The position numbers were made by a program, and so were the translations under genes. Below, piece by piece: positions 6,610-46,400 of a DNA stretch of 64,000 nt. The stretch comes from Prevotella sp. (GTDB taxonomy: Bacteria; Bacteroidota; Bacteroidia; Bacteroidales; Dysgonomonadaceae), in contig JAITVV010000043.1 of assembly GCA_031285625.1 (NCBI GenBank), positions 62,001 through 126,000 of the forward strand, given 5' to 3'. Numbering within the stretch: the stretch's first letter is position 1; each line of letters starts with the position of its first letter. The notes under the pieces are model-generated. The model was not told where the DNA came from. It ran no database searches and saw only the letters and a program-made list of their open reading frames with translations.

Positions 6610-6639
6610 TTTGCAATATTCAAAAAAGTATTACTTTTG
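6610..6639 (+). promoter_or_regulatory. promoter of the aromatic amino acid operon
   Basis: TTTG at 6610-6613, an 18-base spacer and TACTTTTG at 6632-6639 match the Bacteroidota -33/-7 consensus (TTTG and TAnnTTTG). Transcription should start near 6645, about 25 bases before the leader peptide ATG at 6669. Confidence 0.7.
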
Positions 6640-6668
6640 TATCCATATTCAAAACGAAGAATATTAGA

Positions 6669-6725
6669 ATGAAGAACTTTTCTTATACATACTTTTTCTT
6701 TTTTTACTTTTACTTTAAAAGGTAA
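6669..6725 (+). CDS. pheL: Phe/Tyr-rich leader peptide of the aromatic operon
   Basis: An 18-codon reading frame encodes MKNFSYTYFFFFYFYFKR and stops at 6723-6725. Seven residues are Phe and four are Tyr, with a run of nine codons (8-16) made only of Phe and Tyr. It lies between a good promoter and a terminator hairpin upstream of prephenate dehydratase. This is the layout of leader peptides that sense charged tRNA by ribosome stalling, as known for pheA and pheST in enteric bacteria. The symbol is used by analogy with that system. The sequence TTAGAATG gives only a weak ribosome binding site, which is usual in this phylum. Confidence 0.85.
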   Translation: MKNFSYTYFFFFYFYFKR

Positions 6726-6810
6726 GACAGGATTTTGTATGAGAAAATTGGAATAAAATAAACAATATAAATATATAGAATCCTGTCAGGTATGACAGGA
6801 TTTTTTTTTG
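6726..6810 (+). promoter_or_regulatory. transcription attenuator (antiterminator/terminator switch)
   Basis: Three segments can pair in two exclusive ways. Segment A (GACAGGATT, 6726-6734) begins directly after the leader stop codon. Segment B (AATCCTGTCA, 6779-6788) can pair with A over 9 bases, or with segment C (TGACAGGATT, 6793-6802) over 10 bases with a GGTA loop. B-C is followed by a run of T to 6809 and is a perfect intrinsic terminator. A ribosome finishing the leader would cover A and allow B-C; a ribosome stalled at Phe/Tyr codons would leave A free to pair with B and allow readthrough into pheA. Confidence 0.85.
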
Positions 6811-6834
6811 ATAATAAGTGAAAATAAGTTTAAT

Positions 6835-7677
6835 ATGAAAAGAGTTGCTATACAAGGGGGATTAGGCGCGTATCATGGGATAGCCGCAGAAAATTATTTC
6901 GGAGAAGAAGTAGAGATTGTTCCGTGCATTACTTTTCGCGACATTTTTACTACTATCAAAAAAGAACCGAATACCATCGGTATCATGGCTATAGAGAACA
7001 CAATAGCAGGCAGCCTTTTGGGTAACTATGAGCTGCTCAAAGAGAACAAATTACCGATTGCAGGAGAATACAAACAACGTATCTCACACTGTCTGGCCGC
7101 ACTACCGGGAAAAACTATCCACGATATCAAAGAAGTAGAGTCGCATCCGATTGCACTAATGCAGTGCACTCAGTTTTTAGATACACTTCCCGAAGTGAAA
7201 ATCATTGAGCATGAAGACACGGCTCTTGCTGCAAAAGATGTGGCTGAAAAGAATCTTTCGAACACAGCCGCCATATGTAGTACAAGAGCTGCCGAGATAT
7301 ACGGACTGAATATACTAGCGAGGGGAATTGAGACAAATAAGCACAATTTTACTCGCTTTCTTATTTTTGGTAATCCATGGGTAGTAGATGAGTTGCAAAA
7401 AGATGAAGTTTTAAATAAATCTTCTATCGTATTCACAACACCACATAGCGAGGGTAGTCTCTCTAAGGTGTTATCTGTATTTTCTTTCTATGGCATCAAC
7501 CTCACTAAGATACAATCACTCCCGATAATCGGTCGTGAATGGGAATATCAGTTTTATGTAGACCTTACATTTTCTGATCTGACCCGCTACAAGCAATCGC
7601 TACAGGCCATTCGTCCACTTACCAATGACCTGAAACTACTGGGAGAATATCCTGATGGCAAACAAAGCGAACTCTAA
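6835..7677 (+). CDS. pheA: prephenate dehydratase
   Basis: Converts prephenate to phenylpyruvate in phenylalanine synthesis; cytoplasmic, 280 residues. The periplasmic-binding-like catalytic domain (about 1-180) begins KRVAIQGG and carries IMAIENTIAGSL and the conserved NFTRFLIFG with the catalytic Thr-Arg-Phe. An ACT domain (about 195-275) follows. The two ACT motifs that bind Phe in classical enzymes, GALV and ESRP, read GSLS and QSLP here, so feedback by Phe may differ. There is no fused chorismate mutase; that activity is supplied by the downstream aroF-type fusion. A TTG at 6808 lies in the terminator T-run and is rejected as start; ATG 6835 follows the attenuator by 25 bases. Confidence 0.95.
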   Translation: MKRVAIQGGLGAYHGIAAENYFGEEVEIVPCITFRDIFTTIKKEPNTIGIMAIENTIAGSLLGNYELLKENKLPIAGEYKQRISHCLAALPGKTIHDIKEVESHPIALMQCTQFLDTLPEVKIIEHEDTALAAKDVAEKNLSNTAAICSTRAAEIYGLNILARGIETNKHNFTRFLIFGNPWVVDELQKDEVLNKSSIVFTTPHSEGSLSKVLSVFSFYGINLTKIQSLPIIGREWEYQFYVDLTFSDLTRYKQSLQAIRPLTNDLKLLGEYPDGKQSEL

Positions 7678-7735: not shown

Positions 7736-8896
7736 ATGAATATAGTACCCGCTGACCGCCTGAATATAGTAAGCGAATATTACTTCTCAAAAAAACTCAG
7801 GGAAGTTGCTGAAATGAATGCAGCAGGAAAGAATGTTATTAGTCTTGGAGTTGGAAGTCCCGACCTCCCACCCTCTGAAGAAACGACCAAAGCTTTTTGT
7901 GAATCTGTTGTAAAAAGTAACGTACACGGATATCAGCCGCATGTAGGTATACCCGAACTACGCAAAGCCTTTGCCGATTGGTATAAAAGGACATATAATG
8001 TTGTATTAGATCCTGCAAAAGAGATACAACCATTGATCGGTTCAAAAGAAGGGATTCTACATATTTCCCTTGCTTTTCTAAATCCGGGCGATAGCGTATT
8101 AGTGCCCAATCCGGGTTATCCGACTTATAGTTCTGTCAGCAAACTTGTAGGAGCCAATATACAGACTTACGACCTAGATGAAAATAATAACTGGCAACCC
8201 GATTTCGATGCATTGGAAAAGATGGATCTGTCTAATGTGAAGCTTATGTGGATTAACTATCCGAATATGCCAACAGGAGCGAATGCTACAATAGAATTAT
8301 TTGAAAAAATAGTTGCATTCGGTAAAAAACATAATATTGTGATAGCTCATGACAACCCGTACAGTCTTATTCTGAATGAGAATCCACTTAGCATTCTCCA
8401 GGTGGAAGGAGCCAAAGATATCTGTATCGAATTAAATTCGATGAGCAAATCACACAATATGCCGGGATGGCGTATCGGGATGGTAGCATCGAATGCACAA
8501 TTTATACAATGGATACTAAAAGTGCTCAGCAATATAGAAAGTGGAATACTAAAACCAATGCAGCTAGCTGCTGTAGCCGCACTAAACAACTCGCAAGAAT
8601 GGCATAAAGAAAACAACATCAGATTATATGCCAACCGCCGCCGGTTTGCAGAAGAAATAATGAGTGAATTAGGCTGTACTTTCGACAAAAATCAATCCGG
8701 AATGTTCCTTTGGGGTAGGATACCCGATAAATATAAAGGTAGCGAAGAGCTGGCTGATAAAATATTATATGATGCAAAAGTATTCCTTACTCCGGGTTTC
8801 ATTTTTGGAGGCAAAGGGGAAAGGTATATACGTATTTCCTTATGTTGCAGTGAAGAGATGTTGAGAGATGCATTGGAAAGAATTAAGAAAATGTAA
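7736..8896 (+). CDS. PLP-dependent class I aminotransferase (aromatic pathway)
   Basis: Fold-type I aminotransferase of 386 residues. Lys238 in SMSKSHNMPGWRIG is the PLP Schiff-base lysine. NYPNMPTG is the N-P-x-G region that contacts the cofactor and substrate, DNPYS holds the pyridine-nitrogen Asp and the Tyr that contacts the PLP oxygen, and RISLCCSEE near the C-terminus carries the carboxylate-binding Arg. Placed between pheA and DAHP synthase, it is best explained as the step from phenylpyruvate (and hydroxyphenylpyruvate) to Phe/Tyr, or prephenate to arogenate. Sequence alone does not exclude aspartate or LL-diaminopimelate aminotransferase. The gap from pheA is 58 bases, without a terminator. 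Confidence 0.85.
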   Translation: MNIVPADRLNIVSEYYFSKKLREVAEMNAAGKNVISLGVGSPDLPPSEETTKAFCESVVKSNVHGYQPHVGIPELRKAFADWYKRTYNVVLDPAKEIQPLIGSKEGILHISLAFLNPGDSVLVPNPGYPTYSSVSKLVGANIQTYDLDENNNWQPDFDALEKMDLSNVKLMWINYPNMPTGANATIELFEKIVAFGKKHNIVIAHDNPYSLILNENPLSILQVEGAKDICIELNSMSKSHNMPGWRIGMVASNAQFIQWILKVLSNIESGILKPMQLAAVAALNNSQEWHKENNIRLYANRRRFAEEIMSELGCTFDKNQSGMFLWGRIPDKYKGSEELADKILYDAKVFLTPGFIFGGKGERYIRISLCCSEEMLRDALERIKKM

Positions 8897-9000: not shown

Positions 9001-9564
9001 ATGAAGTTTAAGCCAAGACATATTAAACTAAAGAACAACAAAACCGTTGAAATAAGGGAAGCTGTTATTGATGATGCACAAGGGCTTATAGATGCCGCTA
9101 AAAAGTATTTGAGAGACAGTGACTACCTGCTATCTTATGAGGAAGAATTCACCAATAGCCTTGAAGAGGAAGTCTCTTGGATAGGATCAATGGCTAATGA
9201 CAATAGCCTGTTGTTAGTCGCTGTCTATGAAGGTGAGATTTTATCCACATTCAGCCTGCACAGCAGACAACTGAAAAAGATAAAACATACTGCAGAAATA
9301 GCTATCGCTATATTAAAAGAATGGCAAGGTCTAGGTTTAGGATTTGCATTGTTCAATTCAGCTATTACATGGTGCAAGGAAAATACTTCACTCGAAATCT
9401 TATATCTTGACGTTTTTGCCGAAAATACAAATGCATATCATCTTTATAAGAAAATAGGATTTACAGAAGATGGCAGAAGAAAAAATTATTACAAGACCAA
9501 ATCAGATAAATATATAGACAATATAATGATGTCACTAAATATAAATCAAATAAACATTAAATAA
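9001..9564 (+). CDS. GNAT family N-acetyltransferase
   Basis: A 187-residue GCN5-related acyltransferase. The core (about residues 15-175) shows the beta4 strand TAEIAIAILKEWQGLGLGFALF, where the Q-G-L-G-L-G stretch matches the acetyl-CoA pyrophosphate loop (R/Q-x-x-G-x-G/A), followed by LDVFAENTNAYHLYKKIGF, the typical C-terminal motif of Rim-like acetyltransferases. The substrate cannot be predicted. It is inserted in the aromatic operon, 104 bases after the aminotransferase and only two bases before the DAHP synthase gene, so translation is likely coupled to the latter. It may act on an amino acid or amine, or be a passenger. Confidence 0.85.
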   Translation: MKFKPRHIKLKNNKTVEIREAVIDDAQGLIDAAKKYLRDSDYLLSYEEEFTNSLEEEVSWIGSMANDNSLLLVAVYEGEILSTFSLHSRQLKKIKHTAEIAIAILKEWQGLGLGFALFNSAITWCKENTSLEILYLDVFAENTNAYHLYKKIGFTEDGRRKNYYKTKSDKYIDNIMMSLNINQINIK

Positions 9565-9566
9565 AT

Positions 9567-10628
9567 ATGAAACTAGAATCTATTTTACTTCCCGGGGTTG
9601 ACCCGAAACGTCCCTTAGTGATAGCCGGCCCTTGTAGCGCCGAAACAGAAGAACAAGTGATGAACACTGCCAGACAACTGGCTGCCGATGGCATTAAAAT
9701 CCTTCGTGCCGGAATATGGAAACCCCGGACAAAGCCAGGTGGTTTCGAAGGTGTTGGTAGCGAGGGACTTGCATGGCTCAAAAAAGTGAAACAAGAAACA
9801 GGTATGTATGTATCTACCGAGGTTGCCACTCAGAAGCATGTTTACGAAGCACTTAAATATGGTATCGATATGCTCTGGATAGGCGCACGCACCACAGCAA
9901 ACCCTTTTGCCGTACAGGAAATCGCAGAAGCTTTGCAAGGTGTTGACATCCCTGTATTGGTTAAGAACCCTGTCAATCCCGATCTTGAACTTTGGATCGG
10001 AGCGCTTGAACGACTTAGCAATGTGGGACTTACTAAAATAGGTGCTATACACCGCGGATTCAGTTCATATGATAAAAAGATATACAGGAACCTGCCCCAG
10101 TGGCATATACCAATCGAATTGCAGCGCCGTTTCCCGGACCTGCCGATTATCTGTGACCCAAGCCATATCGGGGGAAAACGTGACCTCATACAACCTTTGT
10201 CTCAACAAGCAATGGACCTGAACTATGATGGACTGATTATAGAAACACATTGCGACCCTGAGAACGCCTGGAGTGACGCGGCACAGCAGGTAACACCTGT
10301 CAGACTGAAAGAAATACTGGCTTCATTAATTATCAGAGACGGAAAGCAATCCACTGAAGACCTTTCTGACCTTCGCCGACAGATTGACGAACTTGACGAT
10401 CAATTACTCGAACTCTTAGCCAAACGTATGCGTATTTCCTGTGAAATAGGTACTTTCAAGAAAGAACACAATATGACTGTAGTTCAGACTGACCGTTATG
10501 ACGAGATACTCAACAAACGTATAGCACAGGCTGAAGGGATGAAAATGAATCCGGATTTCATGCGTATTATACTTGAAGCAATCCACGAAGAATCTGTAAG
10601 ACAACAGGTAATTATATTGAACAAATAG
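9567..10628 (+). CDS. aroF: 3-deoxy-7-phosphoheptulonate synthase-chorismate mutase fusion
   Basis: Bifunctional cytoplasmic protein of 353 residues. The N-terminal part (about 1-260) is a type I-beta DAHP synthase, which joins erythrose 4-phosphate and phosphoenolpyruvate: IAGPCSAET, GIWKPRTKPGGFEG, WIGARTTANPFAVQE, KNPVNPDLELWIGA and CDPSHIGGKRD are all present. The C-terminal part (about 265-353) is an AroQ-type chorismate mutase with DLRRQIDELDDQLLELLAKRM and a final HEESVRQQ helix. The fusion is usual in Bacteroidota and lets the mutase act as sensor or partner of the synthase. It supplies both the first step of the shikimate route and prephenate for the upstream pheA. It is the last gene of the operon and is followed by a terminator. 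Confidence 0.95.
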   Translation: MKLESILLPGVDPKRPLVIAGPCSAETEEQVMNTARQLAADGIKILRAGIWKPRTKPGGFEGVGSEGLAWLKKVKQETGMYVSTEVATQKHVYEALKYGIDMLWIGARTTANPFAVQEIAEALQGVDIPVLVKNPVNPDLELWIGALERLSNVGLTKIGAIHRGFSSYDKKIYRNLPQWHIPIELQRRFPDLPIICDPSHIGGKRDLIQPLSQQAMDLNYDGLIIETHCDPENAWSDAAQQVTPVRLKEILASLIIRDGKQSTEDLSDLRRQIDELDDQLLELLAKRMRISCEIGTFKKEHNMTVVQTDRYDEILNKRIAQAEGMKMNPDFMRIILEAIHEESVRQQVIILNK

Positions 10629-10645
10629 TAATATATAATATCATT

Positions 10646-10685
10646 AAGGACTAAAGGATATTCAATTCTTTTAGTCCTTTTTTAT
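10646..10685 (+). terminator. terminator of the aromatic operon
   Basis: Stem AAGGACTAAA with TTTAGTCCTT (10 pairs), followed by a T-rich tract. It lies 18 bases after the aroF-type stop codon. Confidence 0.85.
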
Positions 10686-31486: not shown

Positions 31487-32269
31487 TTATCCTTTTTCAG
31501 CAATATTACCTCTTACTTTAGTCAAAAATTTAAGCATCCCGGCACTATCTTTTTTCTCAATGATCTCTAAAAGATGTTTCAATTCAGCACGAATCCCTTC
31601 TACCTGAGCCGGAGTATATGGGTTGAAAAGAATTTCAGTCAAAAGAAAATCATCTTCAGACAGAAGCCCTTTTGCAATATTCATATGACGCTTAAATGTT
31701 GTACCGGGCGCATCCTGGTGTTTCATTACAGAAGCAAAGACAAGTGTAGATGCAAATGGTATGGACAGGGAATAAGCAATGGTTTCGTCATGCTCCTCAA
31801 ATGTGTATTCAAATACATTCAATTTGAGACTGCTGTATAAATCTTTAAAGAATATCTTCCCCCAATGATTTGACTCTGATATCACAATCGCACTCTGAGT
31901 ACTTAAGTCAGTCAAGTTAGCAAATGTAGGGCCAAACATCGGATGTGTAGAAGCAAAGGGCCGTCCGGTCTTCTGATAAAATTCTCTCAATCCGGTTTTT
32001 ACAGAGGCAATATCGGATAATATACATGCCTCATCCAGATAAGGGAGGACCATTTCAAAAGCCTGAATTGTATATTTCACAGTTGCAGCATTAATAACGA
32101 TTTCCGGATTAAATTCCTTTATCTCTTCCGGATTACTCATCCTCACCACATTATAGACAAACCGAAGACGTTTTGGATCTATATCGAAAACAGCAACTTC
32201 ATGATCGAAGCTCAATACATCTGTAAAAAAGGAACCCATCTTTCCGGCTCCAAGTATCAATATTTTCAT
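31487..32269 (-). CDS. tyrA: prephenate dehydrogenase
   Basis: A 260-residue cytoplasmic enzyme that oxidises prephenate to 4-hydroxyphenylpyruvate in tyrosine synthesis. The Rossmann NAD-binding motif LILGAGKMGSFF begins right at the start. STHPMFGP is the family active-site stretch with the catalytic His, and a helical dimerisation domain follows (about 150-260). An ATG 84 bases further upstream would add residues without family character; I chose the ATG at 32267-32269, directly before the Rossmann fold. It is separated from the aromatic operon by about 21 kb and has its own -7 element. Confidence 0.9.
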   Translation of the reverse strand: MKILILGAGKMGSFFTDVLSFDHEVAVFDIDPKRLRFVYNVVRMSNPEEIKEFNPEIVINAATVKYTIQAFEMVLPYLDEACILSDIASVKTGLREFYQKTGRPFASTHPMFGPTFANLTDLSTQSAIVISESNHWGKIFFKDLYSSLKLNVFEYTFEEHDETIAYSLSIPFASTLVFASVMKHQDAPGTTFKRHMNIAKGLLSEDDFLLTEILFNPYTPAQVEGIRAELKHLLEIIEKKDSAGMLKFLTKVRGNIAEKG

Positions 32270-43438: not shown

Positions 43439-46400
43439 TCATTTTGATACGTTCTTTTTATACTCATTAGGTGTTACACCAAACTCTTCCTTAAAATATT
43501 TACGAAAATATTTAGGATCATTGAATCCTACCTGAAATGCAACCTCATTTACAAACATCTGACTTTTCTCCAACAGATCTGCTGCACGTTTCAAACGAAT
43601 GAAACGAATAAATTCGGAAGGTGTCTTATCCGTCAATGCCAATATTTTCTTATAGAAATAAACCCGGCTCATCCCCATCTCTTTACAAAGATCTTCAACA
43701 AGGAACTCAGGATTGCCCATATTCTCCTCAACTATTAATATTGCTTTTTGAACAAATTTTTCATCCATTGAGGTTATTTCTATCTCACTTGGCGAAATAT
43801 CAATCTTTTTCTTAAAATTATGATGTATTCTCTTTTGCTTTTCTATTATTTTAGCAATTTTCAACTTCAACATATCAATATTAAAAGGCTTAGATATGTA
43901 ATCATCTGCACCGGCTTCTATTCCCGAGTATTTATTTTCTTCAGAAGATTTAGCTGTAAGCAATATAATAGGAATGTGCGATGTCCGAATATCTCCTTTT
44001 ATCTGGCGACAGAACTCATAGCCATCCATTTTAGGCATCATAACGTCACAGAGTATAATATCAGGCAGTTGATCGAGGACTATGCTATATCCTTCTTCCC
44101 CATCATTAGCTGTTACAACACGGTAATCTTCAATAAACAGGCTTGTTATAAACTCACAAAAATCTTCGTTATCATCAACTATCAGCAACAACGGGAGGTT
44201 TGCACGCTGAGCCGATTTCATATCGGGTTTCTGTATCAGATGTATTTCATCTGTAATGGAATCTCCTGAATGTATAATATCCTGACTACTTAATTCCTTA
44301 TATGTTGAATTTTGTATTGGCAAAAGAACAGTAAAAACGGAACCCTTACCAACAACACTCTCTACCAATATTTCACCACCATGCAGTTTGACATATTCAC
44401 TGGCTAAATGTAAACCGACGCCCGTTCCCGACTGGGTATTCTTTCCAGTCTTTTCTATTCTGAAAAAACGCTCAAATATTTTTTCCAGATATTCCTTATC
44501 CATACCAATGCCGGTATCTGTTACCTTCAGGCATAATTGCCTGTTTGGTGACTCTCCATTCTGCAGCAATTCCGAGATACCAAGACTCACATCTATTTGC
44601 CCATCCTCAGTATACTTAAATGCATTTGATATTAGATTGGAAATCACTTTATTCATCTTTTCCTTGTCAAACTCCATCTGCAACTCCTGCAAGTATGTTG
44701 TAAACGTAAGCCTGATAGACTTTTCGGCTGCTAGAGGAGAGAATGACAGACAAATATCTTTTGTAAACTCAATAATATTGCCACGCGAAATATTAAGAGC
44801 CATTTTATTCAGGTCAAATTTTCTGAAATCAAGAATTTCATTCACCATATTCAGTAAGTTCTTGGCATTCTTATGCATGATATTCATTGTAGCCTTTTGT
44901 TCTTCTGAAGCAGGTGATTTCATCAGTTTTTCTAATGGCGTAAGTATAAGAGTCAACGGAGTTTTGAATTCATGGCTTATATTCGTAAAGAACTTGAATT
45001 TAAGTTCATCCACTTCATGAATTTTGTTCGCTTCCAATATTCTCTGAGCTTGCTCATATTCTTCTCTTTGTTTATTAAGCTTATACTTGATAAATAACCT
45101 TATCAAAGCAGCTGCTATAATTACATAAATAATATATGCCCACCATGAAAACCAAAATGGAGGCTGCACTACTATTTTCAGCATAATAGGATCACTTGTC
45201 CATACATTATCATCATTACTGGCATAGACAATTAACTTATATGTCCCGGCATTAAGATTGGAATATGAAGCTGCACCGATTCCATTATTGATCTCTGTCC
45301 ACTTATTATCCAATCCTTCCAGCATATATTTATATCTGCTTTTTTCTGGATGAATAAAATTAAGCGCAGAAAACTTTATTGTAAAATTCGTTTCTCCATA
45401 GTGCAATGTTATTTCGTCAATATCAGTAATCGACTTTTCTATTATAACTCTTCCATTGTATTCAATATTTGGTTCTATAACCTGATTTGTTATTAACAGA
45501 TCGGTAAAACGTGGAACAGGAGGATTTTGATTAAAGACTATCTCTTTGGGATTGAATGAAATATATCCACCTATACCTCCGATGTAGATTATACCATCCT
45601 TATCTTTATAAATTGCATTTTGATTAAAAACTGAGCCGGGGAGACCATCATTAACATCAAAAACAGCTATAGAATATTCCAAATTATGATTGATATACTT
45701 ACAATCGATAAAAGCAAGACCATTACGTGTTCCTGCCCAAATATTCCTATCGTTATCTTCTATAAGAGAGACTACTTCATCGCTCGGCAAGCCATTAGCT
45801 GTGGTTATGTAGATAAATCTCTCTGTAGAAGGATTGTAAACGTTGATCCCTTTTTCTGTCGCTACCCAAAGAAGCCCCCTCGAATCTGTCATCAAGTAAT
45901 TGGAAGATTCTGTAGTCAGTGAGTCCGCCAGCACTTGTTCGGTGAAATAAGGTCGTATTTCTTTCTTATTGTTATCCAGATAATATATGCCTATATCAGT
46001 ACCGAAATATATGTTTTTCAAAGAATCGGTAAAGGTTGATACAACATAATTTGTCCTCAAGTTACTGTTGTTTGTATTATTATGTGTAAATGTATTCCTT
46101 TCACGGTTCAGTTGGTCTATTCCCCCTCCCAAAGTTGCTATCCATAAATTATTATCTTTATCCTCTGCAAGCCCGTAAACACTCTTGCTGGAAAGCGAGT
46201 TGGGATTATTCTCATCTATCTGATACCTTTTAAAGCTTTTGCCGTCATATGAATTTAATCCACCAAAGAATGTTCCTATCCACAGAGTCTGGCTACTATC
46301 TTCTTCTATGGCCGTTATGATATCAGCTGATATACTGGATTGATCTTTGGGATCGTTGTGAAACCGCTGCACATCTCCTGTTTCAGGATTATATTTTATC

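Follow-up and report, generated by a model that had tools for sequence, protein, structure and literature searches.

The leader region of the pheA operon in the stretch of DNA analysed here (the window, 64,000 nucleotides) is very probably, on sequence grounds, a ribosome-mediated transcription attenuator that would sense charged tRNA-Phe and tRNA-Tyr. An earlier note made from the sequence alone had proposed such an attenuator, and the proposal is supported by conserved phenylalanine and tyrosine codons, covarying RNA segments (A, B and C), a conserved promoter and a predicted switch point, both in the window and for the majority of relatives. The region combines a short orf rich in codons of the pathway, an intrinsic terminator, a covarying antiterminator and the predicted geometry of stalled and stopped ribosomes. 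The window belongs to a 4.84 Mb draft assembly of 96 contigs (genome G000). The closest named relative of its PheA protein among the matches listed is that of Dysgonomonas sp. 521 (95% identical), and the host is, judged by its sequence, a Dysgonomonas, of the order Bacteroidales.

Each of the named features (promoter, leader, A, B and C) was found by direct reading where the earlier note had placed it. What that inventory overlooked is a fourth element, a pairing of the leader coding region (segment 1) with A and the bases that follow it, which appears in the full-length fold (Table 1). The two parts of the promoter, TTTG and TAnnTTTG, correspond to the Bacteroidota sigma-ABfr promoter consensus (PMC7366714), and transcription would begin at about 6642-6646. 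The predicted leader peptide reads M K N F S Y T Y F F F F Y F Y F K R; seven of its codons specify phenylalanine (six TTT, one TTC) and four specify tyrosine (one TAT, three TAC). The terminator hairpin (6777-6804) consists of 12 pairs, one of them G-U, around a GGTA loop, and is followed by nine T. The 17 bases AGGTAAGACAGGATTTT at 6720-6736 are repeated at 6788-6804 with one change, so that B is able to pair either with the A side or with C. The folds computed for A to B (6726-6792, -21.9 kcal/mol, z -6.8) and for the whole leader (6655-6812, -38.0 kcal/mol, z -5.2) were each equalled by none of 200 shuffles. RNAalifold applied to 30 sequences of the family gave a similar hairpin, in which CATAC of the leader pairs with GTATG after A, and also paired UUUACUUU, within the Phe/Tyr codons, with the surroundings of the stop codon; in some relatives segment 1 pairs in another register. 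The segment 1 hairpin is presumably the counterpart of the 1:2 protector hairpin in classical attenuators. Rfam 15, applied at gathering score, gave no matches in the 64,000 bases of the window.

Table 1. Features of the pheA leader and operon in the window, with the separate tyrA gene
Feature	Coordinates	Strand	Details
Promoter	6610..6639	+	TTTG (6610-6613), 18 nt, TAnnTTTG = TACTTTTG (6632-6639); read directly
Leader peptide orf	6669..6725	+	MKNFSYTYFFFFYFYFKR; 18 codons, ATG 6669, stop TAA 6723-6725
Segment 1	6678..6689	+	Region of leader codons 4-7; pairs with 6736-6747 (protector hairpin)
Segment A	6726..6740	+	5′ arm of antiterminator; its first base is the base after the stop codon
Partner of segment 1	6736..6747	+	Bases overlapping and 3′ of A
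Segment B	6773..6788	+	6773-6787 with A (antiterminator) or 6777-6788 with C (terminator)
Segment C and T run	6793..6809	+	C 6793-6804, nine T 6801-6809; intrinsic terminator
pheA	6835..7677	+	Prephenate dehydratase, first controlled gene; PF00800, E 1.1e-54
Aminotransferase, class I/II	7736..8896	+	PF00155, E 2.1e-67
GNAT acetyltransferase	9001..9564	+	PF00583, E 1.8e-16
DAHP synthase-chorismate mutase fusion	9567..10628	+	Last operon gene; PF00793 and PF01817
Terminator-like hairpin	10646..10679	+	Operon end
tyrA	31490-32269	-	Outside the operon; PF02153, 34.1 bits

According to the proposed mechanism, transcription would start near 6643 and a ribosome would begin the leader peptide behind RNA polymerase. 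When phenylalanine and tyrosine are both plentiful, the ribosome would reach the stop codon and cover A, B would pair with C, and transcription would end near 6809. When the supply of charged tRNA-Phe or tRNA-Tyr runs low, the ribosome would stall at about codons 8-15, covering segment 1 and leaving A free; A:B would form before C is made, the terminator would be blocked, and the genes for PheA, the aminotransferase, the GNAT acetyltransferase and the DAHP synthase-chorismate mutase would be transcribed. If the leader were left untranslated, segment 1 would pair with A and the following bases, and the terminator would form.

The operon contains pheA, the aminotransferase and the GNAT gene as first described; its last gene, described then as a DAHP synthase, proved to encode a fusion of that enzyme with chorismate mutase. 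A tyrA gene lies no more than 5.2 kb downstream, after the DAHP synthase gene, in 47 of 81 loci (80 among the matches listed and the window's own), which makes a joint phenylalanine and tyrosine signal sensible. The tyrA gene of the window is 21 kb away from the operon, behind an EF-G-like gene (EF-G recognised by eye), so that the tyrosine codons there are explained only through shared steps; a close relative (L031) retains tyrA inside the operon. The GNAT gene is within the operon in eight of the 81 loci (again 80 among the matches listed plus the window's own), and the relatives of its product with solved structures are general GNATs, including phosphinothricin acetyltransferase. Another genome of the genus Dysgonomonas (G058) has a second, separate Phe/Tyr leader, MNNLSFTYGFYYFYPKDKSRVNL (C250:17673-17803, locus L242), directly before a GNAT gene whose product is 42% identical to the GNAT of the window operon, an arrangement that would tie the acetyltransferase to shortage of aromatic amino acids.

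Relatives were scanned with a detector of an orf rich in Phe, Tyr or Trp codons, an A:B helix of at least seven pairs and a terminator (B:C). A first version required the stop codon to be near A and caught 87 of 110, missing Parabacteroides and some Dysgonomonas because their stop codon lies past A, and the detector was therefore widened. The adjacency of stop codon and A that had been taken as integral to the device thus holds in the window and is not universal; where the stop codon lies past A the ribosome would traverse A, and the model can still hold. The widened detector found 131 of 138 (a set with duplicates), and dinucleotide shuffles of regions upstream of pheA were positive in 0 of 327 (narrower first version), two of 685 and one of 600 cases. 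The scan of the window was positive at 6669, where 10 of 12 codons are aromatic. A weak call at 44312 on the + strand, MYWQKNSKNGTLTNNTLYQYFTTMQFDIFTG, with five aromatic codons in 12, is probably due to chance.

A search with an alignment of 14 PheA proteins yielded at least 80 named loci, which among the matches listed belong to Dysgonomonas, Paludibacter, Proteiniphilum, Parabacteroides and other genera. The detector placed the device upstream of pheA in 79 of the 80 named loci among the matches listed, the one that was missed having only 61 nt upstream, and made eight off-target calls in 1.52 Mb (both strands). At one locus (L050) a mismatch interrupts the homologous A, and the helix chosen by the detector sits in the leader. 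In an alignment of 86 Bacteroidales sequences, 85 have TAnnTTTG within the 78 nt that precede the leader, compared with 68 of 1720 windows placed at random in the same loci, and 75 of those 85 also have a TTG-like element further upstream. It had been suggested that leader peptides and covarying segments be compared in relatives, and that relatives without both the Phe/Tyr codons and the alternative pairing would count against an attenuator; the opposite was found, both being conserved in these loci (79 of 80 among the matches listed) and in the 86-sequence alignment.

Among 119 sampled genomes of Bacteroidales, 49 have a PheA match, and 47 remain when G000 and G006 are left out. The device is present in 43 of the 47 by detector plus inspection, comprising 37 genomes positive by detector (22 of 28 and 15 of 19), five with leaders seen by eye (L117, L122, L132, L218 and L223, the last having a hairpin without a U run) and one (G066) found with an RNA model. 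No leader was seen among the 47 for L114, L115 (4.3 kb extra upstream searched), L225 (where the PheA start is unaligned) and L226. Contig C88 of G066 (locus L245) carries two tandem Phe/Tyr leaders before a PheA fragment, and the other pheA-like gene of G066 (L137) has no leader. Tandem Phe/Tyr attenuators, the second copy recognised by eye, are also present upstream of pheA in G249 (L178), in an order that differs from that of G066.

A sample of 198 genomes of the phylum included 44 with PheA that belong to the class Bacteroidia outside Bacteroidales, and 41 of these have the device by detector plus inspection. The detector accounts for 31 (30 of 40 fetched, and G315), and relaxed folding revealed seven more genomes with a leader, a terminator and an A:B duplex that is bulged or less stable (-9 to -21 kcal/mol). 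Three others (G371, G288 and G253; loci L204, L205 and L206) had been candidates for absence of the leader, which was rejected when it was found to head a rearranged operon with pheA 3.6-3.7 kb downstream. It precedes a DAHP-synthase-like frame and then shikimate-pathway-like frames (recognised by eye), so the leader goes with the head of the operon, not with pheA. No leader was seen in G189, G272 and G367 of the 44, the PheA proteins of which are divergent (28-33% identical). Outside the class, the 20 genomes fetched gave two leaders by detector (L182, L184), two by relaxed folding (L180, L181) and none in the other 16. The four have PheA scores (E 2e-60 to 3e-71) that resemble those found in the class, which suggests that the PheA gene and its leader moved together. 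G270 has a similar PheA score (1.4e-60) and no leader within the upstream stretch searched.

Codon columns were compared in 79 of 81 loci (80 among the matches listed and the window's own) that were found by PheA homology together with a nucleotide anchor, which two loci lack. The last codons of the block specify Phe, Tyr and Phe in 79, 76 and 74 of these 79 loci (among the matches listed plus own), respectively; the fourth codon from its end specifies Tyr in 35, Phe in 23, Trp in 11 and other residues in 10, and the fifth Phe in 65 and Tyr in 12. Leucine occupies only two of the 711 codons at positions -1 to -9 of the same loci. In a set of 134 leaders, Phe, Tyr, Leu and Ile account for 31.2, 19.6, 1.4 and 1.6% of residues, compared with 21.1, 6.6, 17.6 and 7.5% in dinucleotide shuffles, the aromatic excess being due in part to selection because the leaders were chosen for aromatic codons.

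These patterns bear on the possibility that the leader is a U-rich RNA element in which a poly-U/UUUUAC site binds a protein that chooses between A:B and B:C, the reading frame being incidental. Such an element would fit the very high U content of the leader, the presence of TTTTACTTTTACTTT among its most conserved stretches, and the preference for TAC at codon -2 (71 of 79 loci, among the matches listed plus own) when nine genes of the window use TAT more often than TAC (105 versus 25), although TAC may instead reflect pairing with GGUAAG around the stop codon. However, codons for Leu and Ile are likewise rich in U but fall approximately 12- and 5-fold below shuffles, and their avoidance is not expected of a U-rich binding site. 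The columns interchange Phe, Tyr and Trp, and across the class an aromatic-rich frame persists even as A, B and C vary in sequence. The genome of the window also has His, Leu/Ile/Val and Trp leaders before matching genes. A protein-binding element is therefore considered very unlikely.

The pairing of segments was assessed in the alignment of 86 Bacteroidales sequences. For B:C, 96.3% of cells are paired, and six of 12 pairs have changed on both sides, in 82 cells (no more than 10 in slid controls). For A:B, 87.0% of cells are paired, and seven of 14 pairs have changed on both sides, in 71 cells (no more than 21 in slid controls). The nine-pair helix of segment 1 (CATAC/GTATG) is 81.1% paired, with five pairs changed on both sides in 50 cells (no more than 15 in slid controls), including one pair that goes from A-U to G-C in 26 sequences and another that goes from U-A to C-G in 20. 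The numbers of changed pairs and of pair types do not exceed shuffles for A:B (reached by 88 and 110 of 500) or for segment 1 (reached by 258 and 120 of 500), so that the support for these two helices comes from the cells, the score and the slid controls. The longest helix of segment 1 is only weakly above shuffles (mean 9.3 versus 8.1); clearer are the column counts given above and its duplex energy, which in Bacteroidales averages -10.9 for native and -7.4 for shuffled sequences, 64 of 102 loci being better than 90% of their own shuffles. In distant relatives the letters of A, B and C have been replaced together: A/B/C are CAGGAT/ATCCTG/CAGGAT in Dysgonomonas, and CGGGACT/AGTCCCG/CGGGACT or GAGGCTTT/AAAGCCTC/GAGGCTTT in other members of the class. 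Native A:B helices of 51 detected loci (L116 and up) average 8.7 pairs, at least seven having been demanded by the detector itself, versus 6.0 when A and B are taken from different loci.

The switch was modelled by masking the RNA under a ribosome whose 3′ edge was set at 9, 12 or 14 nt beyond the A-site codon's first base. In the window, the predicted probability of A:B is 0.95-1.00 over the three assumed footprints when codons 8-15 are in the A site, and that of B:C is 0.89-0.95 when the ribosome is on the stop codon. Stalls at codons 3-5 favour the terminator (probability of A:B 0.26-0.37), so that Phe4 is predicted to matter little at equilibrium. The outcome at codons 6, 7 and 16 depends on the footprint, the probability of A:B at codon 16 being 0.99, 0.37 and 0.15. 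The switch point is thus predicted to lie near the end of the Phe/Tyr run. In the model without a ribosome (RNA from 6650), segment 1 is paired and the terminator reaches 92% in the full-length RNA; the pairing probability of segment 1 is 0.92 once C has been made and 0.00 just before, when A:B is favoured. For untranslated RNA to terminate, segment 1 would therefore have to take effect first or prevail in the end.

When the full-length RNAs of relatives were folded at equilibrium, 49 of 134 loci switched, compared with one of 402 controls; so few do because the antiterminator, being long-range, usually loses to the short terminator, and the model accordingly requires A:B to form first. By a criterion applied before C is made, that B be sequestered more by stalling on Phe, Tyr or Trp codons than at the stop codon by a difference of at least 0.3, 127 of the 134 loci switch, versus 66 of 402 controls in which A and the spacer were shuffled. 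The 134 loci had been preselected by a detector that demands an A:B helix and aromatic codons, so their switch, codon and helix-length results are not independent of selection, and in seven of them the helix chosen by the detector falls inside the U-rich leader itself. Attenuators are thought to work kinetically, and in most relatives the device, as modelled, would be kinetic.

The equilibrium results might be read to mean that the hairpins are a constitutive weak terminator which, with an upstream orf, fixes basal transcription with no response to amino acids: the terminator wins in most relatives even with A free, and 85 of 134 loci miss the equilibrium criterion. Against this, B covaries with A as well as with C, the codons match the pathway, and the predicted switch point is near the end of the Phe/Tyr run. 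A constitutive terminator is accordingly rated somewhat below even the protein-binding element. There is very little likelihood that the leader peptide acts in trans with attenuation secondary, as trans action has been reported for peTrpL of Sinorhizobium (PMC7298713), given that conservation is mainly of the aromatic run and other positions vary. Finally, the idea that AT-rich DNA happens to yield Phe-rich orfs and hairpins has in its favour a low rate of random detection (eight in 1.52 Mb, up to two of 685 shuffles) and is refuted by conservation, both of the device at 79 of 80 named loci among the matches listed and of the promoter element, which 85 of 86 aligned relatives have.

Three other pathways (histidine, branched-chain amino acids and tryptophan) were examined for sister leaders of the Phe/Tyr attenuator in the genome of the window. 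Upstream of hisG (PF01634; G000:C18, L200) is a His leader, MSNKLHHHHFTLLPLGE, with an A:B helix of 11 pairs and a terminator, for which Rfam gave no match up to E 1. Upstream of ilvD (PF00920; G000:C81, L202) is a branched-chain leader, MTNCFLHILNLVILLVGQSK, with an A:B helix of 12 pairs and a terminator. A Trp leader, MNFLLTNTFWWWHSQLEKS (G000:C30:106300-107250, L203), lies before a trpB-like frame (recognised by eye), which is followed by trpE. It matches RF01692 with 51.3 bits (gathering score 49) and so serves as a positive control: the genome of the window carries a catalogued leader-peptide attenuator. The RNA model R1 of the Phe/Tyr leader found one copy in G000. In another genome, a His-rich leader, MNFQLHTIRHHHYLLLR (G070:C29:8351-8488, L243; by eye), is situated before a hisG-like frame and has a weak match to R1 (E 8.8e-4).

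It is tentatively proposed, as a possibility that is still rather doubtful, that Bacteroidia run their principal amino-acid pathways (Phe/Tyr, His, branched-chain and Trp) on ribosome-mediated attenuators derived from a common ancestor, with the joint Phe-Tyr sensor heading the aromatic operon wherever that is located; spread across the class was examined for the Phe/Tyr leader, and the other three were each observed in a single genome, with a His leader in one more. If the proposal is true, transcription and translation would be tightly coupled throughout the class, and the GNAT acetyltransferase would be tied to aromatic amino-acid shortage. For attenuation to work, the translating ribosome must follow RNA polymerase closely. 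Transcription and translation are reported to be uncoupled in Bacillus subtilis (PMC7819879), and for Bacteroidia a family of leaders spread over the class predicts that they are coupled. The switch at the aromatic operon, conserved and readable from its codons, could be tested with simple reporters, and would supply a new Rfam family together with small genes that conventional annotation probably overlooks. Bacteroidota is a major phylum of the human gut, and to our knowledge little is known of amino-acid regulation in it.

The leaders of pheA and pheST in Proteobacteria likewise consist of a Phe-rich peptide, mutually exclusive hairpins and an intrinsic terminator, and a Phe leader precedes a prephenate dehydratase gene there as well. 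The device described here differs in its mixture of Phe and Tyr codons (and Trp in some relatives), in an operon that includes DAHP synthase and often tyrA, in a segment A that can begin at the stop codon, in its Bacteroidota-type promoter and in the lack of an Rfam match. T-box riboswitches also control termination according to amino-acid supply, which they sense through tRNA. In contrast, the specificity of the pheA leader lies in a translatable orf, and the Rfam scan of the window gave no T-box match.

A 2010 survey states that before its own case in Firmicutes, leader-peptide systems were known only in Proteobacteria and Actinobacteria (PMC2965389). A 2013 survey of Rfam motifs names gamma-proteobacteria as the possible origin of amino-acid attenuators, and reports Rfam at that time to be without a Phe attenuator (PMC3766115). 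In Bacteroidota, leader-peptide-like small orfs receive general mention for B. thetaiotaomicron (PMC7366714), and a 2021 paper on Flavobacterium psychrophilum describes structured 5′ elements upstream of pheA and hisG, conserved in Flavobacteriaceae, with clues of leader-peptide attenuation ahead of amino-acid operons (PMC9723704). The gene is the same as that studied here; the available sections of that paper do not give the peptide, codons or structure for pheA. In view of this pheA element and RF01692, the phylum already had known cases of leader-peptide attenuation, and the device is less novel than the earlier note suggested. What stands is that the Phe/Tyr peptide, its pairing and its spread have no description among the matches listed in the literature searched, and that no Phe attenuation in the phylum beyond PMC9723704 is among the matches listed in that literature, which is without subscription papers. 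The new points are the breadth across the class and the joint reading of phenylalanine and tyrosine, for which the codons, covariation and spread are documented here. The nearest catalogued system is Bacteroid-trp (RF01692, listed in PMC2864571), the covariance model of which gave no match to the pheA leader (L001) up to E 1. It is found in the same phylum and the same genome and is a device of the same kind, a leader with a terminator, but has Trp codons before trp genes where the pheA leader has codons for phenylalanine and tyrosine.
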